44,090 bases of DNA from Desulforamulus putei DSM 12395 (GTDB lineage: Bacteria > Bacillota > Desulfotomaculia > Desulfotomaculales > Desulfotomaculaceae), in contig NZ_FQUY01000022.1 of assembly GCF_900129195.1 (NCBI RefSeq), positions 1-44,090 on the forward strand, written 5' to 3'. Positions within the stretch are counted from its first letter, which is position 1. Each line of letters begins with the position of its first letter. Below, one piece after another: positions 5,274-43,113 of this stretch. Below the pieces are notes generated by a model. It did no database searches. It saw nothing but the letters and a program-made list of their open reading frames with translations, and was not told where the DNA came from. The translations under genes were made by a program, and so were the position numbers.

Positions 5274-5279
5274 TCTCAA

Positions 5280-5678: not shown

Positions 5679-5687
5679 GTATCCTAT

Positions 5688-5942: not shown

Positions 5943-5989
5943 AGTGGTTCACTCCTTTATATAATTTTTGTATCGCAGGAAAAAGTAAG

Positions 5990-6051
5990 CCATGTTGGTG
6001 TACTTTCCTGATCCACCATCACAATGACAGCGGGAAAATGAGCCAACATGG
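5990..6051 (-). terminator. Long hairpin after parMR
   Basis: The arms CCATGTTGG (5990-5998) and CCAACATGG (6043-6051) are perfect, with a further TTTCC/GGAAA match inside. The hairpin begins right after the parR stop codon, and the minus-strand sequence after it is T-rich (ACTTTTTCC). It is probably the terminator of the par operon or a processing site before the DUF6103-like gene; a centromere-like role is less likely. Confidence 0.55.
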
Positions 6052-6345: not shown

Positions 6346-6349
6346 AGGC

Positions 6350-7231: not shown

Positions 7232-7264
7232 TGAAATTAGCACCACCTTTTTCTTTTTTGATTT

Positions 7265-7639: not shown

Positions 7640-7652
7640 GGCTCTTTTCCTC

Positions 7653-8029: not shown

Positions 8030-8048
8030 TTTTTCCCTCCTTGGCAAA

Positions 8049-8078
8049 CAAAAAAGCCATCCCTTTTCGAGATGACTT
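8049..8078 (-). promoter_or_regulatory. Terminator-like hairpin before DUF6329-like gene
   Basis: The minus strand reads AAGTCATC, loop with TCGAAAAGG, GATGGCTT, then a run of T residues (8049-8055), ending just before the AAGGAGGG ribosome site. It has the form of an intrinsic terminator directly upstream of a start, so it may attenuate read-through from the Fic gene. Confidence 0.6.
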
Positions 8079-8101
8079 TCGCTTCTAAATTATTCTGTTG
8101 G

Positions 8102-8905: not shown

Positions 8906-8931
8906 TCCTCCTTTTTTACAATATTTGTTTC

Positions 8932-8937
8932 ATTATA
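8932..8937 (-). promoter_or_regulatory. -10 box for Fic gene 1
   Basis: The minus strand reads GTGGTATAATG about 27 bases upstream of the Fic start, in AT-rich DNA with AAAGGAGG between. No good -35 hexamer is seen at the right distance. The same GTGGTATAAT string occurs before the second Fic gene. Confidence 0.5.
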
Positions 8938-9053
8938 CCACACTTTTAATAAGCTTAGACAGAATTACGAAGGTTATAGGTTTATTCTAACAGGAAGTCT
9001 CGCCATCGGAAGCTACCCATTTTTCTAATCCACGGCATTGTTTTTCACTTTGC

Positions 9054-10160
9054 TTACGGCAGATAGTTTCTTGGGTTTTGCTTTTCACCGTTCACTCGTA
9101 CCTCAAAGTGCAAGTGCTCTCCGGTGCTTCGGCCTGTGGAACCGACCTGTGCGATGATGTCGCCCGCCTTCACGGTCTGCCCCTCAGTGACAAGGATTTT
9201 GGAGCAATGGGCGTATATAGTGACGAAACCGCCGCCGTGGTCAATGGCCAGATGATAGCCGTAGCCTGTGTTCTTATAGCGTACAAACATCACCGTTCCA
9301 TCAAGGGCTGCATGGATCGGTGTGCCTTTGGGCGCGCCCATGTCCAGTCCGGAGTGTCCTCTGCGCTGGCCGGTGAAGGGATCGGTTCTGTAGCCAAATT
9401 CCGAGGTAACCATGCTGCGCCAGTTTTCACCGAGGGGAGAACAGAAACCGTCCACGCCGGTAAAGGGTGCATCGGACAGCGGCAGTCCGTTTACCCAAGC
9501 ATCGAATTCTTCTCCATAGGTGGGGACACTGCCGCCGTACAATATGTGGTGGTAAATCTCCGAGGCGTTGGCCTGTTCCTCATAAGTGATTTTCCTACCG
9601 AGGGTGCTCTGAAGGTTTCCGTAAATTTCCGGCAGTGATTTAAGCGGTACAGCTACGGTGTATTCTTCCTCCGAGGTTGCGCCATCGCCATTGTCCACGG
9701 TTCGGGTGCGGGTTTCATAACGGACAAAGCAGTCGATAAAGGCACGGTAGTCCGAGCTATCCATCTGTATATTTTCAGCGCCGAAGAACAGAGAATAGAA
9801 AATTGCCTTAACCCTTGTGCTGTCGACACTGCCGTCCTCCACCCGTGATGATATACCGGAGATGGCGGTGTCAAGCTCAGCGAAGCTGTCCTGCATATCC
9901 CGGATATAGGCGGCGTAATCCTCCGGCATTTGGGAAGAAATCGCACCGCCATTAAAGCACAGGTCTATGGCTGCATTGTTATGATCTGCTGTGGCGGAGA
10001 GCAGGCTCACGATCATCACGATGGCCAGAATCAACGGTGTAAGAATGGCAGCGATGAGGACGCCAAGGACTCTCCATGTCCGCCTGTCGGCTGCCGCCTC
10101 GACCGCCGCTTTAACAGCGAGGGTAATGGTAGCCGGAGCAGCCATAACCATCACCACCAT
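9054..10160 (-). CDS. M23-family cell-wall hydrolase of the transfer apparatus
   Basis: About 368 residues. An N-terminal membrane anchor (GVLIAAILTPLILAIVMIVS, about 33-54) is followed by a helical region and a LytM/M23 peptidase domain at 255-368. The zinc ligands are visible: GHSGLDMG (His269, Asp273), YAH (His318) and GEHLHFEV (His349, His351). M23 enzymes cut peptidoglycan cross-bridges; here the enzyme likely opens the wall for the conjugation pore, like the Orf14/VirB1-type hydrolases of other ICEs. The start overlaps the GGCT gene's stop by 10 bases. In-frame ATGs at 10160, 10151 and 10145 are possible; none has an ideal ribosome site. Confidence 0.88.
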   Translation of the reverse strand: MVVMVMAAPATITLAVKAAVEAAADRRTWRVLGVLIAAILTPLILAIVMIVSLLSATADHNNAAIDLCFNGGAISSQMPEDYAAYIRDMQDSFAELDTAISGISSRVEDGSVDSTRVKAIFYSLFFGAENIQMDSSDYRAFIDCFVRYETRTRTVDNGDGATSEEEYTVAVPLKSLPEIYGNLQSTLGRKITYEEQANASEIYHHILYGGSVPTYGEEFDAWVNGLPLSDAPFTGVDGFCSPLGENWRSMVTSEFGYRTDPFTGQRRGHSGLDMGAPKGTPIHAALDGTVMFVRYKNTGYGYHLAIDHGGGFVTIYAHCSKILVTEGQTVKAGDIIAQVGSTGRSTGEHLHFEVRVNGEKQNPRNYLP

Positions 10161-10645
10161 TTCAGGTCAAACAGATTTTCCTGTTCGGGCTGCTGTTCCT
10201 CAGCCAGCCGGATGGATTTTTCCACCGCCTGCTCCAGGTACTCGGTATCAAATCCTGCGCTTTTGTAGCCCTCCATGATGGCATTGAGATAGTAATCGGA
10301 CGGAGATCCGAAGGGATGTCCGTCATTCATGATATAAACCATCGCAGAAATGGTCTTGCCGTTAAGCTCGACATCGAGGATTTCCTTGCGGTAAAAATGG
10401 GGATACCCCTCATAACGGTCAAGGGCCTGCAGGTCTTTTTCTTTCAGTTCCCATAAAAGAACAGGAACATGGCTGCCCTTGAGCGGTTCTACCGTTGCTA
10501 CCGAACCTCTGCGACCGCCACGGAACAGCAGCTCATAATCCTTGATTTTACTTGCCCCGATTACCTTGGCAGTGGGGCATCTAAATGCCATCTGCTGCAG
10601 GTTGAGATTGCTTCCGTACGCAATGTACAAGGTTTTGCTTTTCAT
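10151..10645 (-). CDS. Gamma-glutamylcyclotransferase-like (GGCT/AIG2) protein
   Basis: 164 residues. The family signature YGSNL is at 10-14 and the catalytic Glu is probably Glu79 in DRYEGYP. GGCT-fold enzymes release gamma-glutamyl groups as 5-oxoproline. It lies 15 bases after the amidoligase gene and overlaps the M23 hydrolase, so the three are co-translated. Pairing of amidoligases with GGCT-like enzymes in mobile elements is a known comparative-genomics association, suggesting that one builds and the other removes gamma-glutamyl-type amide links. The substrate here is unknown. Confidence 0.85.
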   Translation of the reverse strand: MKSKTLYIAYGSNLNLQQMAFRCPTAKVIGASKIKDYELLFRGGRRGSVATVEPLKGSHVPVLLWELKEKDLQALDRYEGYPHFYRKEILDVELNGKTISAMVYIMNDGHPFGSPSDYYLNAIMEGYKSAGFDTEYLEQAVEKSIRLAEEQQPEQENLFDLKWW

Positions 10646-10660
10646 GTTTGCTCAGTCCTC

Positions 10661-11680
10661 CTACATGGACATAGAAAGACCGGGGCATTCTTCGGCCTCG
10701 GTCTGTTCGATGTCCTCTTGATTTTGTTCTTCCAAAGCTGCGGCTGCCTGTGCCTGTTCCTTTTCCTTCTTCTGCTTTAATCGTTCCTTTTGCCGCTCGG
10801 CCTGCTGGGGGTCTTTCCAGGCGATGCAGCCGTCCAGATGCTCCAGCAAATGAAGCCGTGCGGTCTTGAATTCATCGCCGATTAAGCCGAGTCTGAGAAG
10901 CCAGGTGCGGAAGGTATATTTTTCATTGGTGCTTTGAGTTTTGGCCCGGCTGGCGCAGCGCTGGGTGAGTGCCTGGTGGCTGATGGCGAGACAGAGCTGA
11001 ATATATGCTTTGATCTTTCCGGCGTGGGTGGTGCCGTTAAACAGCCTGAACTCGATCGTGCCTTTTTGAAACACACTGTGGAGATTGAGGCAGTGGTACC
11101 GGCTGTTGTGGTAATGCTGATGCCTGCCGTCATTGCCGTTGTACCAGATCCAGCTGACATCCTCCAAGGTTTTCGGCTTTTTACGGTTGAGTTCTTCTAA
11201 AAAACTTTGCTCCACCTTTTTGCAGTAGCTCCGCTCTCTTGCCACATTAACCTGCAGCGCCTTATAGATCAAGTCCTCCTTGCTGGCCATGATGTTGGTG
11301 ATATTGCGCAGAGTGTTGGCATTGTGGGGCGAAGCATCCACATGAACATGGATGCCGCAGCTTGCATTGGCAATGGCTCCGGCAGCCCGGAGCTTCCGCA
11401 CAATCTCCTGTATGGTTTCAATATCCTCGTATTTGCAAATGGGACTGACCAGTTCCACGCGGTAAGTGGAATCGGCGCTGCCTCGTTTGCATTCTGTAGA
11501 AATACTGGCATCGCTCACGATTTTCCATCTGCGGTTTTGGCTGTCCAGCACGGAATATGTGTCATAAGCACCTCCGTCATGGGACAGGCGTGTGCCGAAA
11601 TACTCCGATAGAACCTGTGCGGCCCTCTGCCTGGAGAGTCCTGTCATTTCGATTTCAATTCCAAAGCGTTGGGTTTTCAT
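10661..11680 (-). CDS. Amidoligase (glutamine-synthetase-like fold), Met-tailed
   Basis: 339 residues. The N-terminal FGIEIEMTG (6-14), then YRVELVSPICKYEDI (73-87) and the metal-site segment CGIHVHVDAS (108-117) are the signature of the amidoligase family, whose GS/GCS-like fold forms amide bonds using ATP. A Lys/Glu/Gln-rich coiled segment (about 275-325) leads to the C-terminus CPGLSMSM, matching the tail of the DUF6103-like copy B despite different serine codons (TCT, TCC versus AGC, AGT). It starts an amidoligase-GGCT-M23 gene set just after VirB4. Possible substrates include cell-wall peptides or a protein tail; neither can be decided from sequence. Confidence 0.85.
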   Translation of the reverse strand: MKTQRFGIEIEMTGLSRQRAAQVLSEYFGTRLSHDGGAYDTYSVLDSQNRRWKIVSDASISTECKRGSADSTYRVELVSPICKYEDIETIQEIVRKLRAAGAIANASCGIHVHVDASPHNANTLRNITNIMASKEDLIYKALQVNVARERSYCKKVEQSFLEELNRKKPKTLEDVSWIWYNGNDGRHQHYHNSRYHCLNLHSVFQKGTIEFRLFNGTTHAGKIKAYIQLCLAISHQALTQRCASRAKTQSTNEKYTFRTWLLRLGLIGDEFKTARLHLLEHLDGCIAWKDPQQAERQKERLKQKKEKEQAQAAAALEEQNQEDIEQTEAEECPGLSMSM

Positions 11681-13879: not shown

Positions 13880-14650
13880 CTATAGCTGCATACCCATGCC
13901 GCTGTCCAGCTTTGGAATTGGTATGTGCAAAAGCCGCATGACTTCCTTTTGGGATTCAATAACCCGCTCTGCAATAAACTGTACAAAGGGTTTATCATCT
14001 CTATGGGCTTTTTCAAGAAGTTCAATGTATTCATGTCTAAGCACCGGAGGAATTACAGCCAAAAGATATCCATCCTGTATCAGTGCGGTGTTCATAATGA
14101 GCCTGGCAATTCTGCCATTTCCGTCTTTAAACGGATGAATGAAGACAAATCTTTTATGGAGCTGTGCTGCAAACACTACCGGATGAAACTTGTCTCTTTC
14201 GGTTGCAATCCACTGAAAAAGTCCATCCATTTCTTCCTGTATGCGTTTTGTTTCTGCCACAGGATATCTGGAGCCGCTGATGAAAACATCCATGTCACGG
14301 TATCTTCCGGCATATTCTTTCTCTATATTCTCATAAAACATTTGATGCATTGTCAGAACATCTCTTTCCGTGATGGTTCTATTTTTAAGCAGGGTGAACA
14401 TGAAATCATAGGCTTTGGCATGACCGATTGCCTCAAAGGTATAACGCAAGGGTTTACCGCCAACAGTCAATCCATCCTCAAGCAGCACTTTGGTTTCACT
14501 TTCCGTAAGGGTATTTCCCTCAAGAGCATTGGATGACCAAGTGAGTCCGATACGATAGTATTCTTTAAGTTGTGTCAGCACCTCACCCTCGAAGGGTCTG
14601 CGCTCATCTATGGCAGCCTTATATAAGTCAAGTAATCTGTATATGTCCAT
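13880..14650 (-). CDS. Fic-domain protein 2 (class II), Met-tailed
   Basis: 256 residues. The Fic core HPFKDGNGRIAR is at 172-183 with catalytic His172. The N-terminal inhibitory motif SNALEG at 40-45 marks class II regulation. The C-terminus ends DSGMGMQL, a full match to the shared ICE tail. It is inserted between the VirB3/VirB4-type pore genes and has its own GTGGTATAAT promoter box, unlike its neighbours. It shares only the core motifs with Fic 1, so the two are probably separate acquisitions. It likely AMPylates a protein target; a recipient-cell or host target is speculative. Confidence 0.9.
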   Translation of the reverse strand: MDIYRLLDLYKAAIDERRPFEGEVLTQLKEYYRIGLTWSSNALEGNTLTESETKVLLEDGLTVGGKPLRYTFEAIGHAKAYDFMFTLLKNRTITERDVLTMHQMFYENIEKEYAGRYRDMDVFISGSRYPVAETKRIQEEMDGLFQWIATERDKFHPVVFAAQLHKRFVFIHPFKDGNGRIARLIMNTALIQDGYLLAVIPPVLRHEYIELLEKAHRDDKPFVQFIAERVIESQKEVMRLLHIPIPKLDSGMGMQL

Positions 14651-28676: not shown

Positions 28677-31600
28677 CTATTCGAAGTAATAGGTTACCGA
28701 ATAAGTGATATTTGACTTGTTGTACATGCAGTTGTGATTGGTGTAGTAGTAAAACTCCAATTGGCTGTACACCCCTGGGGCCAGCTTTCTGCTGAAGGTG
28801 ATGCCGTTTGTCGTTGTTCGATAGTCCAGTTGATCCCACGCACCGGTCAACACGTTATAGCCCCGCACACGTCCGAAGTCGCTGCCGGAGTGACCGGAGA
28901 CAGGCGGCACCGTAAAGGTATATTCAGTGATGGTGGCACCTTCTATGCCTTGCTCAAGAATGACTGATTCGGGGCCGGTCAGCGTCATGCCGCCGCCATT
29001 TGTGCTATCTGCCACAAAGAATACGATGGCAGCCCACGGGGATTCCGCGCCTGCAGCATCCACGGCTTTCACACGGACAGTGTTCTTGCCTAACGGGTAG
29101 ACTTGGGTTTCGGCATTTCTGCCCTCCCATATATAGGTGATGGCATCTCCGTCCGGATCGGTGGAGGATGCGGTGATTTTAACGGGCGTATTGGGCGGAA
29201 CACTGTTGCCGTTTGGCGTTCTGGTGATAATCGGGGTACTTGGCGCTGAATTGGCAACGGTAAAGTTGATATCCGTCCAATCGGAATACGCACCGTAAGC
29301 ATCCTTTGCTCTGACCTTTACGGTGTGGGAGCCGGCAGCATAGTAGCCGTCCGCGCTTATACCGCTGTATTCATAGGTGACTGCATCTCCATCGGGATCG
29401 CTGGCGGAAACTGTAAAGTTCACAAGGAATTTATGATCCTTAACGGTCCTTGTCACCGTTGCACTGGCGGTCGGCGCATTGGGTGCGGCATTGGTGACTG
29501 CTATGCTCTCAGAATGGGTGAACACCCTGCCTGCATCATCGGTGACGCTGGCAGTCAAGGTATAGGTTCCTGTAGTATTTATGACAATGCTGCCGCCACT
29601 GTTTGTGAGGCTCCCTGTAAAGCTTGCGGCATTGCCATCCTTGGAAAGCGACCATACAATGCTCTTGCCCTCCAAGCCAGAGACATTTCGCATGGACACC
29701 TGAAAGGCCGTACCTGCATGAACGGATGATGGGAGCGTAAAGGAACACTGTGCTATTGGCTTTACAGCAACTGTATCAGACGTAAAAGTAAAGCTGCGGT
29801 TGTTCTTATCCGTTGCGGCCGCAATGATTTTTACGGCAATGGTCTTGTCCGTACTGATGCTTATCTCGCCGCCGCTGTTTGACAATGTGCCGCTGGCATA
29901 ATCGGTATAGGGCACGGCAGCGCCGCCGTTTACCGAAATGCTCCAAGTGATATTAAGACCAGCAAGATCTCTTCCGCTGACTGCGACAGGAATGGCTTCC
30001 CCACCGTAAGAAAGTGGCGGCAGGGTAATCAGCATTTCCGGTATCGGATATATGGTAATGGCGCTGCTGTCAGAAAAAGTTCTGCCAAGAGCGTCTGTCA
30101 TGGTAACAGTCAGCGTATAGCTCCCTTTTTCCACAAAGGTGATGGTACCGCCCTCATCGGAAAGACTGCCGCTGGCATAGTCGGTATAGGGTGCGACATC
30201 ACCGCCATTTGCTGAAATACTCCAAGCGGTATTAAGGTTGTCAAGATGGTTTCCGCCGATAGCGACGGAGACAGGTTCACCCACATAGGAAACATGCGGC
30301 AGCGTAAGCTGTATTTCCGGAATCGGGTGCACGCTGACGGCACTGCTGTATGAAAAAGTTCTGCCGAGGGCATCGGTCATGGAGGCAGTCAGCACATATT
30401 CGCCTTCCTCAGTAAAACGGATTTTTCCTCCCTGGGCGTTGAGCTCACCTTCCACATATTCCGCCAGCTTTACCGCTTTGCCGTCTTTGGTGACGACCCA
30501 TTCAATGGGTAGAACGCCGATGTTTCCTGTTGTTCTAAGGTCGATGGTTCTGTCCGTGTAGGTTGCCTCCGGCAACTCGAACCGGATGTCAAGCACAGGA
30601 TGCACCTCAGTCTTATTTCCATACTCAAAGAGGAACACCCGGCCTGTGGCATCGGCCACCCTCGCCACCAACTCGTAAACTCCGGCGTGTTTAAAGCGAA
30701 TGGTGCCGCCGTTGTTATTCAGCTTGCCATCTACATAAGTCGACCAATCCTGAAAACCATAGGTATTGTCTACCATCCACTCAACGGTTAAACCATCCAT
30801 TTCCTCTGCGGTTGTTATGACAGGGATGGCGGTATCGGTATGCGCCGTGGCAGGCAGGCTGAATGAAAAACTTGGGACGGGATAGACCGTCACCGCCGAG
30901 GTGTAGCTGTAGGTTCTGCCTGCTCCATCCGTAAAGGATGCTTTCAGTACATATTCACCTTTGGAAATGAAGCGGATGGAACCGCCATCATTGGTCAGTT
31001 CGCCTTGGATCGCATCACTGAGTGCAACCGGCTTTCCGTCCTTAGTCAGGGTCCACACTGCCGTAGCCGTGTCAATATTTTGAAAGGTGGCTTCAACGGC
31101 AATAAAGGTATCCGTATGGGTGATTTCCGGCAGATAGAAACCAGCTGATCCAACAGGGTAAACCGTGGTTGTTGCCGTGGTTTCAAAGACTCTGCCTGTT
31201 TTGTCGGTAACCCTGGCGGTCAAGGCGTACACACCTTTTTCCTTGAAACGGATTGTGCCGCCGCTGTTTGACAGTTCACCCTCCACATATTCACGGATGG
31301 AAACTGCTTCGCCATTGTGGGTCAGTCTCCAATCGGCAGTCAGCCCGTCCATTTCCGTCAGGGTAGTGACAAGATCGATGGTCGTGTCGGTGTGCGCTGT
31401 TTCGGGAAGCTCAAACGCCACGCCCGCCACTGGGTAAACGGCGACAGCCTCGCTGTGAGCGAAGATTCTGCCTGTGGCATCGGTGATAGTGGCGGCGATG
31501 TCATAGCTGCCCTTTTCCTTGAAGGCAATCGTACCGCCATCATTGGAGAGCCTGCCGTCAATAACTGTATCCCATGCAACAGCCTCGCCGTCTTTAACTA

Positions 31601-32729
31601 CCGACCATACAATGTCAAGGCTTCCAAGCCCGGAAGCGGTTGCTTTAATGGTGACTGTCCTGTCCGTATGGGTGTACTCCGGCAGCTCAAAGCCTGCGTT
31701 TATCACCGGATAGACCGTGATGCTTTTTGAGCAGGAGGTTTCTCTGCCGCCGTAGTTTACAGCGGTGGCGGTCAAGGTGTAGCTGCCGCTTTCTTTAAAT
31801 ACAATTGTGCCGCCCTCTTTGCCCAGGGAGCCGTCTACCGCTTTTCCAAGGTCAATGGGTTGCAGCTCACCAGTTGCGGTTTCTTTGGCAAGCGACCATG
31901 TAAGTGTCTTGGCGTATTTCAGCTCAGGCGTTATGGTAATACTCGTATCGGTATGCGCCGCAGCGGGAAGCTCAAAAGCCACCTGTGCCTTGGGGTGGCT
32001 GGCAGAGCCGCCGCCTGAACCACCACCCGAACTGCCGCTCGAATTGCCGCCTTCGTTGTTGCCCGTGTTATCGGCGGGTGGTTTCTCCTGATCCGGTTTG
32101 TCCTTTGCTTCGTTCAGATTATCAATCAGTTCAAAGGCTTCGCCTCTGGTGGTTCCACCGTCCGGACGAATGTTTCCGTCAGGATAGCCGCTGATTAGAT
32201 CGTCCTCCTTGGCAATACTGACATATCCCTTATCGGAATTGTTGATTGCCTCATCGTCCTTAAAACCGGTATTTCCACTGAACTGCTTTGCAGCCTCGCC
32301 TTTGCCGATTGCACGCACTAACATCCTGATGATTTCAATGCGGGTAATCGGTTCATCGGGCTTCAGGCTGCCGTCATAATCTGCCGGATCAAGGAGACAT
32401 ATGTCTACGAGGGCCTCGATGTTTTTCTCCGACCAGTGACCGTCAATATCGTCAAAGGTGGGCGGCTCTTTCTCTGCCTCTGTTGTATCAAGCTCCAGAT
32501 TCCTGGCCAGCAGGGCGGCGAACTCGCCTCTTGTAATGGTGTCGTCCGGCCTGATCGTTCCGTCAGGGTAGCCCTTAATCACACCCTTTTCCACGAGTCT
32601 GATGATGGTCTGTTCCGCCCAATGTCCTGCGATGTCGGGAAAAATCAGCGTTCCAGCAAAGACGCTGCCGCAAAGCAGAAAGGACAGAACAAGGACCATG
32701 AGCCAAATTTTTTTGCTTTTCTGTTTCAA
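28677..32729 (-). CDS. Giant SLH-anchored repeat adhesin
   Basis: 1350 residues. A signal peptide (MVLVLSFLLCGSVFAG) is followed by three S-layer homology domains (about 30-78, 92-142 and 155-208; for example FPDIAGHWAEQTIIRLVEKG), which bind secondary cell-wall polymer. A Gly/Ser linker (about 225-245) leads to nine Ig-like repeats of about 80-90 residues, each opening with a FELPxxxHTD-type motif. Two PKD-like domains (SASDPDGDAVTYEY and SSTDPDGDAITYIW) and a beta-rich end follow. There is no LPXTG. It probably displays an adhesive stalk, perhaps for contact between mating cells. The ribosome site is AAAGGATTG, weaker than its neighbours. Confidence 0.88.
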   Translation of the reverse strand: MKQKSKKIWLMVLVLSFLLCGSVFAGTLIFPDIAGHWAEQTIIRLVEKGVIKGYPDGTIRPDDTITRGEFAALLARNLELDTTEAEKEPPTFDDIDGHWSEKNIEALVDICLLDPADYDGSLKPDEPITRIEIIRMLVRAIGKGEAAKQFSGNTGFKDDEAINNSDKGYVSIAKEDDLISGYPDGNIRPDGGTTRGEAFELIDNLNEAKDKPDQEKPPADNTGNNEGGNSSGSSGGGSGGGSASHPKAQVAFELPAAAHTDTSITITPELKYAKTLTWSLAKETATGELQPIDLGKAVDGSLGKEGGTIVFKESGSYTLTATAVNYGGRETSCSKSITVYPVINAGFELPEYTHTDRTVTIKATASGLGSLDIVWSVVKDGEAVAWDTVIDGRLSNDGGTIAFKEKGSYDIAATITDATGRIFAHSEAVAVYPVAGVAFELPETAHTDTTIDLVTTLTEMDGLTADWRLTHNGEAVSIREYVEGELSNSGGTIRFKEKGVYALTARVTDKTGRVFETTATTTVYPVGSAGFYLPEITHTDTFIAVEATFQNIDTATAVWTLTKDGKPVALSDAIQGELTNDGGSIRFISKGEYVLKASFTDGAGRTYSYTSAVTVYPVPSFSFSLPATAHTDTAIPVITTAEEMDGLTVEWMVDNTYGFQDWSTYVDGKLNNNGGTIRFKHAGVYELVARVADATGRVFLFEYGNKTEVHPVLDIRFELPEATYTDRTIDLRTTGNIGVLPIEWVVTKDGKAVKLAEYVEGELNAQGGKIRFTEEGEYVLTASMTDALGRTFSYSSAVSVHPIPEIQLTLPHVSYVGEPVSVAIGGNHLDNLNTAWSISANGGDVAPYTDYASGSLSDEGGTITFVEKGSYTLTVTMTDALGRTFSDSSAITIYPIPEMLITLPPLSYGGEAIPVAVSGRDLAGLNITWSISVNGGAAVPYTDYASGTLSNSGGEISISTDKTIAVKIIAAATDKNNRSFTFTSDTVAVKPIAQCSFTLPSSVHAGTAFQVSMRNVSGLEGKSIVWSLSKDGNAASFTGSLTNSGGSIVINTTGTYTLTASVTDDAGRVFTHSESIAVTNAAPNAPTASATVTRTVKDHKFLVNFTVSASDPDGDAVTYEYSGISADGYYAAGSHTVKVRAKDAYGAYSDWTDINFTVANSAPSTPIITRTPNGNSVPPNTPVKITASSTDPDGDAITYIWEGRNAETQVYPLGKNTVRVKAVDAAGAESPWAAIVFFVADSTNGGGMTLTGPESVILEQGIEGATITEYTFTVPPVSGHSGSDFGRVRGYNVLTGAWDQLDYRTTTNGITFSRKLAPGVYSQLEFYYYTNHNCMYNKSNITYSVTYYFE
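29480..31990 (-). repeat. Tandem Ig-like repeats inside the adhesin gene
   Basis: Nine diverged units, recognisable by [FL]xLPxxxHTD at the start and GGTIxFKExGxYxLTA near the end. Units seven and eight are most alike (both contain YTDYASG), suggesting recent duplication. Borders are approximate. Confidence 0.75.
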
Positions 32730-34816: not shown

Positions 34817-35416
34817 CTACACACCACCCATCTGAGGAGTTTCATCCGGCTCATCTTCCATATATTCGTATTCACCGGTGCTTTCATTGTAGAGATATCC
34901 TGCTTCGGCAAGGTCTATATCAAGAATACTTGCCGCCAGCTCAAGCGCCTCGGCAGAGCCACCCTCTGGTGTAAAGTAAATCAGGGTTTTGCCGCCTTTA
35001 AACTCTGCCTTGCCGGTGTTATAGCCAAAGTCCTCGTCCGCCCATTTGTAGTCAAAACGGATATCGGGAAACATAGAGGACAGCTTTTTCATTAGATCGC
35101 TAACGCTGCTCCATGCGGTTAAAAATTTTACCGCGCTGCCATCAAAATACTCTGCGGTATGTTCGTCAAAGCCATAGCAGTTCCACTTGGTTCCCCAATT
35201 TTTCAAGCTCCAGTCGTACCAGCAGTTTTCAGCGCCGTACTTTTCTATTTCCTCCCTGCCAAGATTGCCCCTGTAGATGTGTTCCGGCATCGGTGTAATT
35301 TTATTGAAGTCAATGCTGCCGATTCCAATCTCATCATTTTTGATGGTTTCAAACATTGCTCTGACTTTTTTCTTATCACCATGTGCGGTGAGTATGTTTG
35401 TAATATGATTTGGCAT
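34817..35416 (-). CDS. Api92-like ferredoxin-fold-domain protein
   Basis: 199 residues. The start MPNHITNILTAHGDKKKVRA and the later NCYGFDEHTAEYFDGSAVKF fit the Api92-like/DUF1281 family found in phages and mobile elements; function unknown. It begins one base after the ArdA stop, and its ribosome site GGGAGG lies inside the last codons of ardA, so the two are coupled. It ends ETPQMGGV, a loose form of the tail. Confidence 0.75.
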   Translation of the reverse strand: MPNHITNILTAHGDKKKVRAMFETIKNDEIGIGSIDFNKITPMPEHIYRGNLGREEIEKYGAENCWYDWSLKNWGTKWNCYGFDEHTAEYFDGSAVKFLTAWSSVSDLMKKLSSMFPDIRFDYKWADEDFGYNTGKAEFKGGKTLIYFTPEGGSAEALELAASILDIDLAEAGYLYNESTGEYEYMEDEPDETPQMGGV

Positions 35417-35417: not shown

Positions 35418-36482
35418 TTACATTCCTCCCATCGTCTGTCCGTTAAAGTTTTGTTCAGCTCCTTGCTTCAGCTCCTGTTCCGGCTTGATAAAGAAATCCT
35501 TGCTATCCCAAAAGCTGACGTAGAGCTCGCCGCCATGAATCTTGATACCTCGCTGTTCAAATCCTTCACCCCAGCCGTCGGAATACTGTCCGGTGAAATA
35601 ATCTGTGAGTATGGACATTTCAGATTCGGTCAGCTCACCATAAACCTCAACCACCATAACACCCCACAGCTCGCCGTTGTATTCCTCAACGGTTGGATGG
35701 GCGCTGTAAACCTTTTCGGCCAGCGCCTTGTCCCTATCGAAGTAAACCATTAAGCCTCGCTGTCCCTCATCGGGAAGTTTTTCTTTTTCTATGGCCTCCA
35801 GGATTTCATCCATGTAATACAGTGCTTCTGCCGGTGAGAGTTCTTCGAGCATATCGTCCGCACCGCACTCTCCATACTCATAAGACGGATAAATTTTTAC
35901 AAATAAGGGACTAAAAAATTTAAGGGTCTGCTTTTCATTGGCAATGGTCTGTTCAAGACTATCGCTGGTTTTCACCACATAGCCGAGACTGGTATAAGCA
36001 CCGGCATTGTTTGCTTCATACTCAACAGCCACCCGTTCATAATCCAGATAGGGCCATGCACTTTTAGGTATTTCAACCTTGCCGCTCTCCACGAGATAGA
36101 CGCCCAGCTCCTTTGCAGTGGTGATGTCGGGAAACAATTCATAGTTTCCCAAGCTGTCCGCAAGTCTCAGGACATCCTCCAGCCCCTTCACCACCTCCAT
36201 TTCCAGTGCAGCAGAGAAGATTGCTGCATCCCTGTCGGACATTTTCTCAAGTTTTGACCCCAGGATGTCAAGCTGTTCGAGGGAGTCATGCTCATGGATG
36301 TACCGCTTGAGGTCTGGGATAGAAGATTGGACATCAGTGATGCAGATGGCAACTGTTGTGCCAAATTCACCATGGGGAGTGAGCTTTTCAAAGACAGCGA
36401 GCTTTTCTCCGGTGTTAAACGGCAGGGACAGCCACTCGCCATGTGCCTTATCCCTGACGTTTGAAACCAATACTTTTAACAT
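35418..36482 (-). CDS. ardA: ArdA antirestriction protein (long form)
   Basis: 354 residues. ArdA proteins mimic B-form DNA and block type I restriction enzymes, protecting incoming mobile DNA. Many Asp/Glu residues (for example EYGECGADDMLEELSPAEAL) and a C-terminal half with LDYERVAVEYEANNAGAYTS fit the family. It is longer than Tn916-type ArdA. It ends QTMGGM, but the last codons also form the next gene's ribosome site, so the tail likeness may be partly forced. GGAGG precedes the ATG. Confidence 0.82.
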   Translation of the reverse strand: MLKVLVSNVRDKAHGEWLSLPFNTGEKLAVFEKLTPHGEFGTTVAICITDVQSSIPDLKRYIHEHDSLEQLDILGSKLEKMSDRDAAIFSAALEMEVVKGLEDVLRLADSLGNYELFPDITTAKELGVYLVESGKVEIPKSAWPYLDYERVAVEYEANNAGAYTSLGYVVKTSDSLEQTIANEKQTLKFFSPLFVKIYPSYEYGECGADDMLEELSPAEALYYMDEILEAIEKEKLPDEGQRGLMVYFDRDKALAEKVYSAHPTVEEYNGELWGVMVVEVYGELTESEMSILTDYFTGQYSDGWGEGFEQRGIKIHGGELYVSFWDSKDFFIKPEQELKQGAEQNFNGQTMGGM

Positions 36483-36526
36483 TGTTTTTCCTCCAATCTT
36501 TTAAATGTAGGCATTAAAATTGGCAA

Positions 36527-36566
36527 TAAAAAAGCGGCAGCATCTTATTTCTAAAATGCCACCGCT
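36527..36566 (-). promoter_or_regulatory. Terminator-like hairpin upstream of ardA
   Basis: 11-bp arms AGCGGTGGCAT and ATGCTGCCGCT (two G-U pairs) followed on the minus strand by six T residues, about 50 bases before the ardA start. It either ends transcripts coming from the STAND gene or attenuates ardA. Confidence 0.65.
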
Positions 36567-36604
36567 AATTTGCTAATGGAGGATTCCTTATTTGGTTTTC
36601 GTCG

Positions 36605-36636
36605 TATATATAAAATGAAGCTGCGCTATCAGGCAA
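36605..36636 (-). promoter_or_regulatory. Possible promoter for the ardA operon
   Basis: Minus-strand TTGCCT (36631-36636) and TATATA (36607-36612) are 18 bases apart. Both hexamers deviate from consensus, so the call is tentative. A terminator-like hairpin follows before ardA. Confidence 0.35.
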
Positions 36637-36736
36637 CCTCTGAATACCCTTGAGAAGCCAACCTAGTTTCTGGTTAGCTGCCAGTTGTCAAACGATTATT
36701 GAAAATACAAAAATTTCTTGACACTGCCCAAATAGA

Positions 36737-39700
36737 TTAAGACCGTATTTTACGGTGCTGTCTGGGCCTTAACGGCGAGGTCAATGTTTTCACCGGTTTT
36801 CGATCTAATATATCTATGGCAGCTCGGGTCTCACGCACATTTAATGAAATGAGTTCCTCAAACATTCGCAGTCCTACCTCACGATATCCAAGATGGCGGT
36901 GCAGCGTGAGGGCAATATTTGTTAGAGGTTCTGCCAGCAAAGCCAAGGATGTGCTTACATTTCCAATGTCCGAACCGCCAGCCCGGATCACTTCCTGACA
37001 CACCTCCGAAACAAGCTCTGGTTCAATTCCTGTATAATCTAGAAGCAACTCAACAAGGTCGGTTGCGGCCTCAAGCAATACTGGACGATGACCACTCACT
37101 GCTTGGATGACCTTTTTTATATCTGAGTTCAATTGGAAATGGTCACGGTTACAACGGAAAACGTCAGCCACTGCGTGTTGTATGGACTTGTCATGGTGAG
37201 AAGCCAAACGGCAGAGGATCTCCCTTGCCATAGTCCGGCTCTTTAACTCATGCCAAAGATGGCTGGCTCCGCAAGCCAGGCCGAGGAGAACGTTTTCGTC
37301 ATCCCCCTCCGATAGGATGCTCATAATGAGGTTCGATGACCAGGATTCCCGGTAATGACAGTGGTAAAGGAACAGCATTTCACCATAAGCTTGACGGTTA
37401 AGGTCGGAAGAACCCTTTATCTTATCTAACCACTCGTGCAATATTTCATTTGGGCGGCACCAGGGCATCACGCGGGCGATGGAATAGAAAGCGACCTGTT
37501 TTTCAAGGACCTGGGGGCAAGTCCTAATAACTGCGTCGTACATACGTGTAGCTTCTTCTGGATCACCATTGAACAGTACAGGCATATGCATCATAGTCAA
37601 TGCCCATACGTTAGGATGCTTTTCATAACGTAGCCTGCTCTTGACGATACGTGCCCAATTGTTGTAATCAGGTGGTTGGCGTTCGAGATATCCTGCTGTA
37701 ATGGCACGTAACATGGTGCCACGGCCGTGGGGTAAGAAGAATAAACCACCCGTCCCGAATAGAATTGATCCTTTGATTTCTTTTGCTTTCTCCTCTTTGG
37801 GTTCATTCATTTCGTGCCAATCAGGTTCCGGGTGTTCTACCAGCCACTTTTCAAGTAGTGATAAAACTTCCTCAGGAAGACCATTTTCACGTCCAGCCAG
37901 TTTTTCAAAAGCTGACGCCGCTCCCTCACGAAAATGTCCTGAAGAAAATCCCCTTTTGTCCAGGTTTTCAACCAGAGTAGTTAGCTCATTAAGCGGTAAG
38001 CCTGATTCAGCCAGACCCTCTAAGCCAGCACCGGCATAGGTTTCATGCCGGCCGGGCTCAAGACTGGCGATCAAGCGGACGGCGCGATGCGGATCAATCT
38101 TTGCCAGTTCCCTAAACTCCCTCGACTGCTGTACCGAGCCACCGCTGCGGGAAAAATCCTCCCATCGACGCTTAGGGTTATCCCACTGAGTTCCGTCTGG
38201 CAACTGATTGAATAAATTCATTAATTCGCCATCGGAGGCTTTAGCCATCTCATCAGCCTTTAACCGGGGACCGATCCACCCACCTGAAACACCGCCATCA
38301 CAATCAGCCAATCTTGGGAAAGCACGTTCTTCTTCCGCTTTTACTTGCCTGGTTCTTAGACTTAGATACTCTTCGGGAAAAGCCCGCAAAAGTCGTAACC
38401 GGTGCTGGCGGTTCCATATTATCCGGCGACGGCGATCTTCCGCGTCCCATTCCGGAACGACTGTTTTATATCGGTTGAACGAAAGTACAGCTTCTTCAAG
38501 CCGCAGTCTGTCTCCCTGACTAAGGTGAGGGAAAGCAGCCGCGATCAGCTGTTTCGTATCTCTGTGGCAATCACTATAGTCACCTAAACACAGCCGCCTC
38601 GGATCGCCGAGTAAATACTCCAAAACCTTTTGGGGTTCAATTGCCCCGATTTGTACCAAGCCACGGGCAAGGAAACGGTGTACGATTAACAAATCCGAGC
38701 TGACGTTATCGTTAAAGAACTGCAGAAAAGCTTGTACGTCGGTTTCCGCTAACTTCTTTATAGCAACTAAAAGTCCGGTAACAACGGTTTTTTCATGTTC
38801 TCTTTCAAACCGGCCGTTTGTGGCAGAATCAGAGCGGTATTGCAAAACAAATTCATGCTCTGCCAATGCCACCCGATTAATCACATTTAAAAACCAGGGC
38901 CATATCCACTGCAAGAAGGACTTTGGCACCTCTTCGGCCAAACTCTCAAGGTTTATATAGTCCATCCGGCTTTCGAGCAACTTCTCCAAGGCATCATTTC
39001 GGTGCAGGGCTCGTATCAAATAATGCTCGTTCTCTTGTAACGGTGTTTTCATTTCCGCCCTTTGTGATTCAAATTCTTCGATTGCCTTAGCAAGCTTCCC
39101 ATCCAGGCGGGCACGCAAGACACGGGGCGCTAGTTCTGGGTTTATTTCTGCAATTCTCTCAACAAGCATCCCGGCTGTCCACAATTCTGAGCGATTAACC
39201 AGTTTTTCCGCTACCAGGATAGTGTGTAAATCCCAATCCTTAAAATCCAGAAGTACATTTAACGCCAAAGGGTCATATGTAGCATCATTGAACCAGTATT
39301 CTTTTATCAGGTAAAAAACATCCATCCCTGCAAAACCTGCCGCCGCGGCGAGGAACGGTACGCAGTGGGAAGCGTGCTCAATTGGTTTGCTCATCCAGCT
39401 TTCCAGACCTTCATACCCACGCAACCTGTTAAACCAGCCGGGGCTGCCTGCCACTGCGCCAAGTACCTTGGGTCCTTCCGTATCAGATTTAAGCAAGGGA
39501 AGCATGAAATATGCTTCTACATCATCCGGACTTTTCTGGCTTCCGAGAAACTCGACCAGCAGCGAAAAGAGGTGCGGTCGCAAACCGGTTTCAAAGAAGA
39601 TTTGCACTTGTTTATGATATTCGGAAAGGGCAGTAGCCCGTAGATAATGTAGGCAGCTCAGGAATGTTGGGCGGACGAAAAGACCGTCCTGCCTTTGAAA

Positions 39701-41245
39701 AACATAATCCGCAAGTGAAATTGAGCCGCTGGCAAAAGCGCGTGTTAACGTGTAATCATAATAGGTCTGATGGCGAAATCCGATAGTCAAGCCGCTCTGG
39801 CCTCGTACCAGGATGTCGTTTTGTTCCAAGAAACGGCGCGCTTCCAGATGGCCATCGGCGCAGGTCAGCGGCAGCCACAAACTTTCTTCCTCTGCCATAC
39901 GCATTGCGAGATCGTTAAGCAACGAAAGGCTATCCTGCGGTACATGCGGTGCCAACACACGTTGTTCCCACAATTCCTCCAGCAATGCGTGTAAGGAATG
40001 AAAAACTACGCCCGGCTTTGCCACGTCGAGAAATATTTTAAGGTGTAAAGGAGTGCGTAATAACTCCTTTAGCTCGTCACTCATGCCGTTAGTTTCGTGC
40101 CCCGCCTGTTCTAGGATAGAGGCAATTTGTCCCCAGGCCGGGAGTTCCAAGGTTACTTTTTCAGCGTTGACGCTGTTTAGCCTGACATCGTGGCGACATT
40201 CGAATTCGCGTGAAGACGCTATGATGTGTACACTTTTTTGACCAGAAAGATTGTGGATGAGGTTTAACAATACGTTTAAACGGCCCGACTTGCGGTCCAG
40301 TAACTCGGAGACTGCGTCGAGCTGGTCTATGATCACGACGACTTTTTCCCTCTCAGCCAGGGCCAAGACACCATCTCTAACATCTAAGCTTAGGTCTAAC
40401 ACTTTTCGTAAATCTTCAACCGTATTGACGTCCGTGCTCAGCGTGTCGGCTTTGATTGCAAGCACGGGCATGCCTTTTTCCTTTAAATGGTGGGCAAGGG
40501 TTGAAAGCAAGGACGATTTACCTGAACCAGGACTGCCCAGGACCAAAGTGGTGGAGTGTTCTGATTCCTCGATGCGTTGAAGCAATTCCGTGAATTCTAG
40601 GCGCTCTATCTGTCGTCCGTCCATAAGGGTTCTTTGATAATTCAACAGTACGTTTGAAGCTAGCAAAAGTTCCTGCCGTAATCGATCAATTGTAATTTCA
40701 CGATGTCCCCCACCAAGGTTCAGCAGGATATCTGTTAAGTGTGCCTGGAATTTTTTCTCAAAATCCCTCGTTCCATCAAAAAAACAAGCTAGAGCCTGGT
40801 ACTCATTAAAAATTGCTTCTCGAAAACGTCTTAAAGCCTCAAGTTGGTAATCATCTTGCTCATGAGGCGGGGCACTTTTTTTGTTAAAAAAGATACTAAC
40901 CCTCGGGTGGCCTCCACCCTTTTCGTTCAGTTGGCGCGCCAAGTTCCACTCTTCCTCTGTACCGGTCATACCCAAGCCAGCGTCGCTGCCAAAGCGGTGC
41001 CAAAAAATAAAAACAAACCAGTCAGGATTAAATTTTTCCACGGCCACGTTAATGATGGATTGGGGGCGCCCAATATTAGAACATACGTCTTCCCAACCAA
41101 ATACGTCCAAAGAAATATGATTTGCTCTGCAGATAGTTAATATAGTATGATCTTCGTTACAAACACGCCGCACTGCTTCTCTTTCCAATATGCAATCGCC
41201 AGGTGAAGCAATAAAAATCCGCAACTGCTTGACAGTATCAACCAT
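36737..41245 (-). CDS. DUF4062-STAND NTPase (1502 aa), possible defence protein
   Basis: The N-terminal 175 residues (QLRIFIASPGDCILEREAVR, PDWFVFIFWHRFG) fit the DUF4062 domain, a TIR-like fold often placed ahead of NTPases. The STAND/NACHT-type NTPase shows Walker A GSPGSGKS (237-244), Walker B VVVIIDQLD (302-310) and a following IIASSREFE. The last 900 residues are helical with TPR- or HEAT-like character, typical of a sensor. STAND proteins switch from a resting to an active oligomer; bacterial ones often sense phage. The ribosome site is weak (GGGGG). The gene lies alone, AT-rich DNA precedes it, and it may be part of the ICE or the host. Confidence 0.85.
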   Translation of the reverse strand: MVDTVKQLRIFIASPGDCILEREAVRRVCNEDHTILTICRANHISLDVFGWEDVCSNIGRPQSIINVAVEKFNPDWFVFIFWHRFGSDAGLGMTGTEEEWNLARQLNEKGGGHPRVSIFFNKKSAPPHEQDDYQLEALRRFREAIFNEYQALACFFDGTRDFEKKFQAHLTDILLNLGGGHREITIDRLRQELLLASNVLLNYQRTLMDGRQIERLEFTELLQRIEESEHSTTLVLGSPGSGKSSLLSTLAHHLKEKGMPVLAIKADTLSTDVNTVEDLRKVLDLSLDVRDGVLALAEREKVVVIIDQLDAVSELLDRKSGRLNVLLNLIHNLSGQKSVHIIASSREFECRHDVRLNSVNAEKVTLELPAWGQIASILEQAGHETNGMSDELKELLRTPLHLKIFLDVAKPGVVFHSLHALLEELWEQRVLAPHVPQDSLSLLNDLAMRMAEEESLWLPLTCADGHLEARRFLEQNDILVRGQSGLTIGFRHQTYYDYTLTRAFASGSISLADYVFQRQDGLFVRPTFLSCLHYLRATALSEYHKQVQIFFETGLRPHLFSLLVEFLGSQKSPDDVEAYFMLPLLKSDTEGPKVLGAVAGSPGWFNRLRGYEGLESWMSKPIEHASHCVPFLAAAAGFAGMDVFYLIKEYWFNDATYDPLALNVLLDFKDWDLHTILVAEKLVNRSELWTAGMLVERIAEINPELAPRVLRARLDGKLAKAIEEFESQRAEMKTPLQENEHYLIRALHRNDALEKLLESRMDYINLESLAEEVPKSFLQWIWPWFLNVINRVALAEHEFVLQYRSDSATNGRFEREHEKTVVTGLLVAIKKLAETDVQAFLQFFNDNVSSDLLIVHRFLARGLVQIGAIEPQKVLEYLLGDPRRLCLGDYSDCHRDTKQLIAAAFPHLSQGDRLRLEEAVLSFNRYKTVVPEWDAEDRRRRIIWNRQHRLRLLRAFPEEYLSLRTRQVKAEEERAFPRLADCDGGVSGGWIGPRLKADEMAKASDGELMNLFNQLPDGTQWDNPKRRWEDFSRSGGSVQQSREFRELAKIDPHRAVRLIASLEPGRHETYAGAGLEGLAESGLPLNELTTLVENLDKRGFSSGHFREGAASAFEKLAGRENGLPEEVLSLLEKWLVEHPEPDWHEMNEPKEEKAKEIKGSILFGTGGLFFLPHGRGTMLRAITAGYLERQPPDYNNWARIVKSRLRYEKHPNVWALTMMHMPVLFNGDPEEATRMYDAVIRTCPQVLEKQVAFYSIARVMPWCRPNEILHEWLDKIKGSSDLNRQAYGEMLFLYHCHYRESWSSNLIMSILSEGDDENVLLGLACGASHLWHELKSRTMAREILCRLASHHDKSIQHAVADVFRCNRDHFQLNSDIKKVIQAVSGHRPVLLEAATDLVELLLDYTGIEPELVSEVCQEVIRAGGSDIGNVSTSLALLAEPLTNIALTLHRHLGYREVGLRMFEELISLNVRETRAAIDILDRKPVKTLTSPLRPRQHRKIRS

Positions 41246-41613
41246 TAAAAAACCCCCAAATTATTTCAAAATAACTATTTAGATCTTAAGCACACAAAAT
41301 GCGGTTAGGTTCATAAATGCCATGCTATGGATGTTTAAGCTCTCTACAACTTCCCATTATAGACATAATTATATCATAAATTCTGGTAAAACTTGTTGAA
41401 AGACTTTTATTTGACTAATTTTTCAGAATATCATTTGTGCTTTCCCTGGCGAGCTATACCCCCATATTTATCAAAGAAAATTCAGTCAGGCAATTAATGC
41501 TTTTCTGGTTGTTTATCTTATAAAAGTAAAAACCCGATTATTTTTAAAAATAACCGAGTTTTTATCATCGTTTTTACCGCTCAAAAAGTGCTCTTCAAAA
41601 TTGCCGGAAAGCC
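41246..41613. other. AT-rich region between STAND gene and rlmD
   Basis: No gene is seen. Two TATAAT strings lie on the minus strand near 41358-41375, suitable for the STAND gene but without clear -35 boxes. A terminator-like hairpin at about 41530-41565 (AAAACTCGGTTATT arms) ends rlmD. Confidence 0.45.
41530..41565 (-). terminator. Terminator of rlmD (bidirectional form)
   Basis: Arms of about 15 bases (AAAACCCGATTATTT and AAATAACCGAGTTTT with G-U pairs) and T-runs on both sides. It lies about 50 bases after the rlmD stop. Confidence 0.65.
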
Positions 41614-43002
41614 TTATTTCATGCGGCTTTCAGCACGTTTTATCTGAATTATGCACTCAACGTGACTCGTCCAGGGAAACATATCCACCGGTTGGGCCAG
41701 TAAGGTTTGATATCCTGAGGCGTCCAAGATACCCAGGTCCCTGGCCAGGGTTCCCGGGTCGCAGGAAACATACACAACCCTAGGTGCCTGCGCTTTGGAG
41801 ATGGCCTGCAGTACTTCTTTTGCGCAACCTTTTCTGGGCGGGTCCAGAACCACCAGGTCTGGTTTCAGGCCTTGTGCAACCATGTTTGGTAATAAACTTT
41901 CTACGGGGCCCGGGATAAATTCGGTATTGGACAGGCCGTTTAGCAGAGCGTTTTCTTTAGCATCTTCCACCGCCTCCGGCACGATTTCCATACCGATCAC
42001 CCGTCCGGCATGGCGTGCCAGGAAGTTCGCAATGGTTCCGATGCCGCAGTAGGCATCTACCACCGTTTCGTTCCCCTTCAGGTCAGCCAGTTGTAAAACC
42101 CTGTTATATCGCACTTCTGTCTGCAGGGGATTGACTTGATAAAAGGAGGCGGCGGAAATTTTAAATTTTAAATCCTTTAAGTAATCAAAAATATACTCCC
42201 TGCCCGTTAATAAACGGTTTTCTGCACCCAGGACAACGCGGCCGGGACTGGTATTAATGTTACGGATAACAGATACAACTTCCGGATGCCTGGTGACAAT
42301 TGCCCTGGCAAACTCCCTAGCGGCGGGCCATCTTTGGGAGGACGTTACGAGGACCACCATGATTTCCCCGGTTCTGAAACCCCGGCGTATCATCACATGG
42401 CGCAGCAACCCGCTTTTCTTCTGCCAATCATAAGGCGGAACAGCTTGTTCATTTATAAGTTCCTCCAGGGTGGCTGCCACCTGGTTGATTTGTTTGTCCA
42501 CCAACAGGCAGGTCTGATGACCCGGACCGGTGGCCAATTGGTAGGTTCCCTCGGCATAAAAGCCCAGTTTTACCCTGTGACCCTCTTGCTTTACCTGCAG
42601 GTGAATTTTATTGCGGTAGTGCCAGGGGTCTGTCATTCCCAGGGTGGGTTGAACCTCTACCTGCTCCAGTCCCCCCAGTCTGGTCAAAGCCGCCTGCACC
42701 ACCGCTCTTTTGTGGTCCAGTTGGGCCTGGTACTCAAGATGCTGTAGTTGACAACCGCCGCACCGGTGGGAGACCGGGCAGGGGGGAACCACCCGGTTTG
42801 CTGCCTGCTCCAGAATATCCACTGCTTCGCCCCTGGCGAAGGATTTTTTTACCCGGGTGATTCTAACCCGGGCCCTTTCCCCCGGGAGAACCCCGGGTAC
42901 AAAGACCGCCAGGTTTTCATATCTTCCCACCCCTTCGCCTGCGTGTCCCAGGCCTTGTATGGTCAAATCAAGGAGATCACCCGTTTTTATAACCTTTTCC
43001 AA
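41614..43002 (-). CDS. rlmD: 23S rRNA (uracil-1939-C5)-methyltransferase RlmD-like
   Basis: About 462 residues. A TRAM domain (LTIQGLGHAGEGVGRYENLA) precedes an iron-sulphur site CPVSHRCGGC with a fourth Cys in GPGHQTC. The SAM-dependent RNA methyltransferase domain has VDAYCGIGTIANFLA, the DPPRKGC motif and VSCDPGTLARDL, where the nucleophilic Cys sits. It methylates uracil in ribosomal RNA. I favour the TTG at 43000-43002 because AGGTG lies six bases upstream; the ATG at 43018-43020 has no ribosome site. It is probably host core DNA. Confidence 0.9.
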   Translation of the reverse strand: MEKVIKTGDLLDLTIQGLGHAGEGVGRYENLAVFVPGVLPGERARVRITRVKKSFARGEAVDILEQAANRVVPPCPVSHRCGGCQLQHLEYQAQLDHKRAVVQAALTRLGGLEQVEVQPTLGMTDPWHYRNKIHLQVKQEGHRVKLGFYAEGTYQLATGPGHQTCLLVDKQINQVAATLEELINEQAVPPYDWQKKSGLLRHVMIRRGFRTGEIMVVLVTSSQRWPAAREFARAIVTRHPEVVSVIRNINTSPGRVVLGAENRLLTGREYIFDYLKDLKFKISAASFYQVNPLQTEVRYNRVLQLADLKGNETVVDAYCGIGTIANFLARHAGRVIGMEIVPEAVEDAKENALLNGLSNTEFIPGPVESLLPNMVAQGLKPDLVVLDPPRKGCAKEVLQAISKAQAPRVVYVSCDPGTLARDLGILDASGYQTLLAQPVDMFPWTSHVECIIQIKRAESRMK

Positions 43003-43113
43003 AGAGAAACACCTCGTCATTGAAGTTGCACAGGGGTATCGGCCCTGCTATAGCATCTACTTGATCACTCTTTTTGATTCGGCTGTATTTATCATTGTCA
43101 CCGAATGAACTCA

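Follow-up and report, generated by a model that had tools for sequence, protein, structure and literature searches.

In a stretch of 44,090 nucleotides from Desulforamulus putei DSM 12395 (NCBI RefSeq assembly GCF_900129195.1, contig NZ_FQUY01000022.1, positions 1 to 44,090; hereafter the window), we studied a large gene on the minus strand (36737–41245). It probably encodes a single-protein immune receptor, Avs-like in build and equipped with a TIR-like NADase, and is carried as exchangeable cargo by an integrative and conjugative element (ICE). The immune reading rests on the replacement of the effector on a conserved switch and sensor, on the defence genes that neighbour close relatives, and on the cargo of sister elements. 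An initial annotation of this DNA had suggested an immune sensor of no named type, either ICE cargo or part of a chromosomal defence island; the sequence comparisons below support the sensor and the ICE, and the protein fits neither the named Avs types nor Swarozyc.

The open reading frame (ORF) has an ATG start, 1502 codons and no internal stops, so the protein is intact; the annotation had given no strand. It is the sole match in its own genome. A full-length copy, 77% identical, is present in Desulfosporosinus sp. BRH_c37 (a metagenome-assembled genome), and against that copy the ratio of nonsynonymous to synonymous change (dN/dS) was 0.17 overall; by region it was lowest in the switch (0.12), with 0.15 for the effector and 0.15–0.24 for the helical parts. 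The ORF is therefore not a chance one, and the ratios indicate purifying selection throughout the gene. It was rightly called a lone gene, being the single gene between two terminator-like hairpins on the minus strand, one upstream, between it and rlmD (41527–41564, 17 pairs), and one downstream (36533–36566, 15 pairs). The scan returned 16 terminator-like sites versus 6.3 from shuffles, and seven promoter-like sites versus 7.0 expected, which is chance level.

The N-terminal effector (residues 1–185; 40691–41245, minus strand) had been annotated as DUF4062, a TIR-like domain. Residues 9–103 aligned to the whole Pfam model (PF13271) and residues 6–185 matched the PADLOC profile PDC-S60 (E = 6.4e-22). 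The Pfam score lay below the gathering cut-off, for which reason we call the domain DUF4062-like. Searching the PDB by sequence with residues 1–185 gave no DUF4062 structure, only two chance-level matches. DUF4062 loci were gathered from the phylum (a match in 14 of 299 genomes), and nine domains pulled by their start motif were aligned with the window and Desulfosporosinus proteins; the motif missed five of the 14 loci, which lie outside these 11 sequences. The glutamate of the T/S-x-x-E motif was present in 11/11, so that the loss of active-site residues named by the annotation as contrary evidence was not seen. In the window protein it is E99 (GTEEEW, T96 plus 3; codon at 40949–40951, minus strand), the proposed catalytic residue; in the Desulfosporosinus protein, serine takes the place of the threonine three residues before it. 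At the start motif, usually SST in this family, the window protein has ASPGD. DUF4062 acts in bacteria as a portal-activated NADase, and in human TEP1 it is an NADase adjoining a NACHT domain, the active-site residues being E97 of the Swarozyc protein KpSwz and E1008 of TEP1 (PMC13174449). E99 would be the equivalent of KpSwz E97, and by this analogy the effector is probably an NADase.

Behind the effector lies the STAND NTPase core (residues about 210–390; 40076–40618, minus strand), with AAA_16, AAA and nSTAND matches and a match to PDB 9n00 (E = 2e-18 over residues 210–605). The AAA_16 match (E = 5.6e-9) was above the Pfam cut-off. Three hallmarks of the STAND superfamily are present: a Walker A motif (GSPGSGKS, residues 237–244; 40514–40537), a Walker B motif (VVVIIDQLD, residues 302–310; 40316–40342) and a C-terminal winged-helix motif (FRHQTYYDY, residues 490–498; 39752–39778; F.HQT..D in 4/4 aligned proteins), each on the minus strand. 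The P-loop domain is thus intact, as annotated. The remainder (residues 521–1502; 36740–39685, minus strand) is a putative sensor. AlphaFold2 was run on residues 1–660 and 560–1502 with an alignment of two sequences; the C-terminal 943 residues were modelled entirely as helices with no strands, at low confidence (mean predicted local distance difference test, pLDDT, 50.8), in agreement with the long helical C-terminus described before. Mean pLDDT for residues 1–660 was 41.9.

The receptor family is rare and patchily spread. Counting the window genome itself, it was matched in four of 100 relatives (the three others matching in part, with identities of no more than 32%), in six of 398 genomes of the phylum, and in four of 113 genomes of the class by profile search. 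None of the eight congeners carries it, whereas a genome of another family (G268; wrong contig assignment is possible for the genomes given such handles) has a 95% identical gene, cut by a contig end. Of 22 matching plasmid records, one covered 80% of the query. A remnant in G114 (L015, 8667–9059) retains the last 130 codons, at 73% identity, and adjoins one of two near-identical 263-aa ORFs. No receptor relative was found among INPHARED phages, and two scans of IMG/VR gave first no pattern match and then 95, none of which was confirmed; carriage by phages is thus unsupported.

More distant relatives differ in what precedes the switch. Residues 189–1484 share 43% identity (574/1350 aligned positions) with a protein encoded on plasmid p057_F of Nostoc sp. 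C057, the similarity beginning right behind the DUF4062-like domain. The Nostoc protein's own N-terminus is a SEFIR domain (Pfam E = 1.2e-13; bSEFIR E = 5.8e-53), and the N-termini of the two proteins showed no significant match to each other. For a relative on Herpetosiphon plasmid pHAU01, the match (24% over residues 210–1262) takes in the switch and a large part of the sensor, behind an N-terminus that is different again. Three distant relatives (L016, L017 and L018), each from a different genome of the phylum, share the switch with the PADLOC candidate PDC-M54A; their N-termini, like that of L008, are nuclease-like, with E, V, Q and K at invariant positions, a pattern seen in PD-(D/E)xK nucleases. 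We dropped a Cap4 identity for these four N-termini as unproven, as 0/4 matched any Pfam nuclease model. L051 had a Cap4_nuclease match below threshold (E = 0.022). Judged from sequence, then, one switch and sensor chassis carries different effectors (DUF4062, SEFIR and others). Effector replacement of this sort is a known habit of immune STAND proteins.

The annotation had called for a survey of the neighbours of the closest homologues, and both the Desulfosporosinus and the Nostoc copies lie among defence genes. Immediately downstream of the former, on the same strand, are an HNH-SAVED effector (PADLOC, E = 2.5e-116) and a CD-NTase (E = 5.7e-153), with Pfam matches to SAVED, SMODS and AGS_C, the core of a cyclic oligonucleotide-based antiphage signalling system (CBASS). 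The Nostoc copy is followed by a ThsB-type TIR gene (PADLOC, E = 1e-64). Upstream of the distant relative L016 is a type II-A retron pair (nucleoside deoxyribosyltransferase, 1.1e-44; reverse transcriptase, 1.6e-77); the pair, a 355-aa ORF and the STAND relative are consecutive on one strand (G404, 3222–11094). An AbiH/SIR2-like gene lies upstream of L018 (Pfam AbiH 3.3e-7, no PADLOC match), and the Herpetosiphon gene is followed by a helicase partly like GajB and a DUF262 gene, which is weak evidence.

The receptor gene lies just inside an element end in the host gene rlmD (rumA; 41614–43020, minus strand). The end sequence, CACGTTGAGTGC..., substitutes the 3' end of this gene at about window position 41664. 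When window and G268 were compared along rlmD, 8–16 of every 20 bases agreed per step upstream, followed by an abrupt change inside the gene; from CACGTTGAGTGCATAATTC onward (41646–41664, minus strand) they were near-identical into the start of the receptor gene. In G268, the element end is preceded by only about the C-terminal third of rlmD, and an unrelated ORF lies upstream of that (L014, 5619–6116). A DNA search of 398 genomes of the phylum with the end sequence gave 18 matches at E ≤ 0.001; we kept the six that matched from the query's first base (E ≤ 5e-21; window, G268, G144, G209, G134 and G156) and dropped 12, namely G453 (99 bases elsewhere in the query, 2.7e-15) and 11 short matches at E ≥ 1e-4. 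In the alignment of the six, identity started at CACGTTGAGTGCATA in 6/6, and what came before was rlmD in four (window, G268, G156 and G134) and other sequence in two (G144 and G209). From this shared start of identity, set against rlmD, we place the end of the element at about 41664; the final 12 to 16 codons of rlmD and its stop are thus of element origin. As rlmD itself often reads CACGTTGAGTG there (for example in G002 and G008), the crossover may lie anywhere in the first 12–15 bases of the core. In the window, G268, G156 and G134, a common end thus replaces the 3' end of rumA in unrelated hosts, as in rumA-inserted ICEs; the part of PMC4701971 consulted describes insertion at rumA by streptococcal serine-integrase ICEs as a swap of its 3' part.

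The gene rlmD was present in nine of nine genus members, with partial, unread matches in G001 and G007, which leaves six congeners besides the window genome. In these six the protein terminates differently, for example HVECVVLMSRVEK. Past rlmD (about 1.4 kb in G005, 10–12 kb in the other five), none of the tested window proteins was found, the set being minus-strand ORFs of at least 120 aa and the IS110 transposase. The receptor gene is thus absent from these congeners, which lack the element end at this locus, a comparison that the annotation had proposed. No integrase was seen in the contig, which starts at base 1 without a far junction (length 44090), and a 19-base search allowing up to two mismatches found no second attachment copy in the genome.

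On its inner side, the receptor gene adjoins element backbone: an antirestriction gene, ardA (35418–36482, minus strand; Pfam ArdA E = 2.8e-10), a DUF1281_C (Api92-like) gene (34817–35416, minus strand; Pfam, 87–88% identical to its counterparts in G077 and G030) and a D12-type adenine methylase. Further into the element are conjugation genes (TrbL, T2SSE and TraG-like ATPases, and a MobL relaxase). Placed between ardA and the end that replaces the rlmD 3' terminus, the gene is ICE cargo, the first of the annotation's two options.

Sister elements hold other genes at this point. Window and G144 match on both sides (36475–36716, 82%; 41361–41671, 93%) and not in the receptor gene between, which defines a cargo slot at 36717–41360. 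In the exact place of the receptor, G144 has SIR2 (PADLOC E = 2.8e-166) and HerA (E = 5e-274) genes (L071, 3540–6870, minus strand), whose products have SIR2 and HerA relatives, respectively, in the PDB. The slot of G156 holds a 260-aa gene with no PADLOC match; a full-length Avs4 follows on the far side of ardA and of a shortened DUF1281 gene (L074, 549–5264, minus strand; 2418.7 bits; PDB 8dgf, E = 0), on the contig whose rlmD bears the same element end (8246–9664, by end-sequence alignment). That contig begins 548 bases past Avs4, so Avs4 cannot be placed inside the element with certainty. G030 shares the backbone, but the 19 kb retrieved from it contain no end of this kind; its ORFs after ardA open with an FRG-like candidate (PDC-S15, E = 1.7e-29). 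Three large ORFs there (L076, 12875–17259) resemble serine recombinases by eye and may be the triplet-integrase module of a related element. The next gene in G209 (286 aa) had no PADLOC match, the G134 contig stops 0.2 kb past the end sequence, and in G077, where an SmpB-like ORF (L075, by eye) lies near ardA, no cargo was read. The receptor gene is thus probably exchangeable cargo of the slot between ardA and the rlmD-side end.

The two closest alleles differ mainly in one segment. Window and G268 differed at 11 of 2025 positions in nucleotides 1–2025 (residues 1–675; 99.46% identity), at 103 of 1119 positions in codons 676–1050 (90.8%) and at 21 of 930 in codons 1051–1360 (97.7%). A scan placed a mosaic block at gene nucleotides 2137–3178 (residues about 713–1060; 38068–39109, minus strand), in which G268 differs by about 10%, versus 0.5% before it; the statistic was 72.7, whereas 2000 permutations gave no value above 26.4. 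Inside the block the two alleles are about equally similar to the Desulfosporosinus gene (82.8 and 81.9%). Point selection was ruled out as the cause, synonymous divergence (dS) being 0.308 in the block and 0.013–0.035 elsewhere. As synonymous change is raised too, the block seems to be imported sequence, on the evidence of one pair of alleles. For residues 1061–1360, dN/dS between the alleles was 0.79, from 15 changes only. We would guess that the block is the recognition segment.

Avs and the portal-activated DUF4062 proteins suggest, by analogy, a mechanism. The helical C-terminus would bind a product of an invading phage or rival element, upon which the STAND switch would oligomerise in an ATP-dependent manner. 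The oligomer would gather the N-terminal DUF4062 domains into active TIR-like NADases, and NAD+ would be cut, so that the infected cell stops or dies ahead of the invader's replication. We infer the ligand, oligomerisation, NAD+ cleavage, abortive infection and the phage as target from this likeness. It is conceivable, though we hold it rather doubtful, that alleles swap the central segment (residues about 713–1060) and so change recognition with NADase and switch fixed, that whole effectors (DUF4062, SEFIR, nuclease-like) are swapped over longer times, and that the protein mirrors, in a bacterium, the DUF4062-NACHT order of TEP1.

Several observations weigh against a NAD-cleaving antiphage receptor. 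The PF13271 score missed the gathering cut-off of 24.7 bits both for the whole protein (18.0) and for residues 1–185 (22.1). In human NWD1, NWD2 and NPHP3, DUF4062 lies beside NACHT and was inactive on NAD+ in an assay (PMC13174449), so a retained glutamate is no proof of catalysis. The low confidence of both structure models leaves the TIR-like fold and the repeat type unconfirmed here; structure prediction, which the annotation had recommended, thus bore out the helices but not a repeat type. A distant Rhizobium relative, which matches the receptor over only part of the switch, has transport and metabolic genes as its neighbours, the housekeeping context that the annotation held would speak against immunity and that close relatives do not show. 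A known defence system sits exactly in the slot in one sister only (G144), with a known or candidate system close by in two more; the cases are few, and there is no matched background to set them against. The cargo could, moreover, act against rival elements and not phages.

That last option is the best placed of the alternatives, though we judge it unlikely as the gene's main job. The receptor would guard element or host against rival ICEs, plasmids or gene-transfer particles and not against lytic phages, in keeping with its position at the element end next to the antirestriction gene ardA. The sister cargo, SIR2-HerA and, nearby, Avs4, is of anti-phage types. The two roles do not exclude each other, as one mechanism would serve both.

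Somewhat less likely again is the same receptor design with a DUF4062 domain that is no NADase, serving as an adaptor, a signalling platform or a maker of second messengers, as some TIR domains do. The inactive human domains would fit, as would the sub-threshold Pfam score and the ASPGD start motif. The retained E99 and the effector's low dN/dS speak against it, and no recognised separate effector gene adjoins the receptor in the window.

Some STAND proteins, such as MalT, are transcription regulators, and a role in transcription or development might be considered. We regard it as very improbable, since no DNA-binding domain appeared among the best 25 Pfam matches, the N-terminus is DUF4062-like and defence genes flank close relatives. 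Least probable is the annotation's other option, a chromosomal defence-island gene merely adjoining the ICE: the receptor does adjoin housekeeping rlmD, but the element end common to six genomes lies on the rlmD side of the receptor, both are missing from the six congeners with a readable rlmD end, and G144 has other cargo in the same slot.

The rest of the window contains further genes of note. Two Fic-domain genes lie in the element's transfer region (8102–8905 and 13880–14650; Pfam E = 4.9e-23 and 3.1e-22), as does an Amidoligase_2 gene (10661–11680; E = 9.1e-85). Near the MobL relaxase is an actin-like protein (6350–7246; ALP_N, MreB-like_C), possibly for element partition. A 1350-aa protein of the element (28677–32729) has three S-layer homology stretches and repeated Ig/PKD-like units, with relatives beside the backbone in G077 and G030, and an IS110-family transposase lies near the contig edge (1664–2914).

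Recognition of DUF4062 as a family of NADases dates only from 2026, when the activity was reported for human TEP1 and for a bacterial defence protein whose auxiliary domain is small; on how the neighbouring NACHT controls the TEP1 domain, those authors can only speculate (PMC13174449). In the window protein, an effector of this kind sits on a STAND chassis in a bacterium. Our literature search found no bacterial DUF4062-STAND protein with this sensor, although the supplement of PMC13174449 may list such architectures. A natural experiment is offered by this chassis with other effectors, together with a pair of alleles that are almost the same outside one sensor segment; a bacterial counterpart of TEP1, if real, would tie the DUF4062-NACHT order to NAD-depleting immunity. 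The cargo slot, with its end placed within about 15 bases, belongs to an ICE family that has SIR2-HerA in one sister and lies beside Avs4 in another, and the end can be used to collect more defence genes from genomes.

Compared with known systems, the element resembles rumA-targeting serine-integrase ICEs, in which, as described in the part of PMC4701971 consulted, the 3' part of rumA is exchanged. The protein has the tripartite design that the consulted parts of PMC12931631 and PMC10907252 give for immune STAND proteins, and the same order as Avs1–5 of the Avs family, an N-terminal effector, a STAND NTPase and a large C-terminal region, here a presumed sensor. The best Avs profile match was Avs2 over residues 224–314, the P-loop region (E = 0.0027; profile versus PDB Avs2 chain, 0.064), and no PADLOC Avs model gave a full-length match at E ≤ 1; with similarity to a named type confined to the P-loop, the protein is Avs-like and not Avs. 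PDC-M54A is homologous in the switch and winged-helix region (E = 1.4e-20, residues 188–525 only, with no full-length match), as are PDB 9n00, 9n01 and 9yix ('AAA family ATPase', 1523 aa; for 9n00, E = 1.3e-42 when the window protein and three relatives were combined into a profile), for whose codes a literature search found no paper; all of these differ from the window protein in the N-terminus and most of the C-terminal region. Swarozyc KpSwz, an anti-phage NADase compared by description only, shares the DUF4062 effector with its retained glutamate, but follows it with a portal-binding helix-turn-helix/winged auxiliary domain (PMC13174449) and no NTPase, whereas in the window protein a STAND NTPase comes next, and then some 980 residues predicted to be helical. 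Human TEP1, NWD1, NWD2 and NPHP3 place DUF4062 next to a NACHT ATPase much as DUF4062 adjoins STAND here, a likeness by description (PMC13174449), although several have WD40 repeats where the window protein is helical. The link to bSEFIR and Thoeris-type TIR defence runs through the Nostoc relative, which bears bSEFIR on the same chassis where the window protein is DUF4062-like. Thus, the window protein combines an Avs-like build with a Swarozyc-type effector, without qualifying as Swarozyc, as one of the named Avs types, as a full PDC-M54A or as the product of a chromosomal-island gene.

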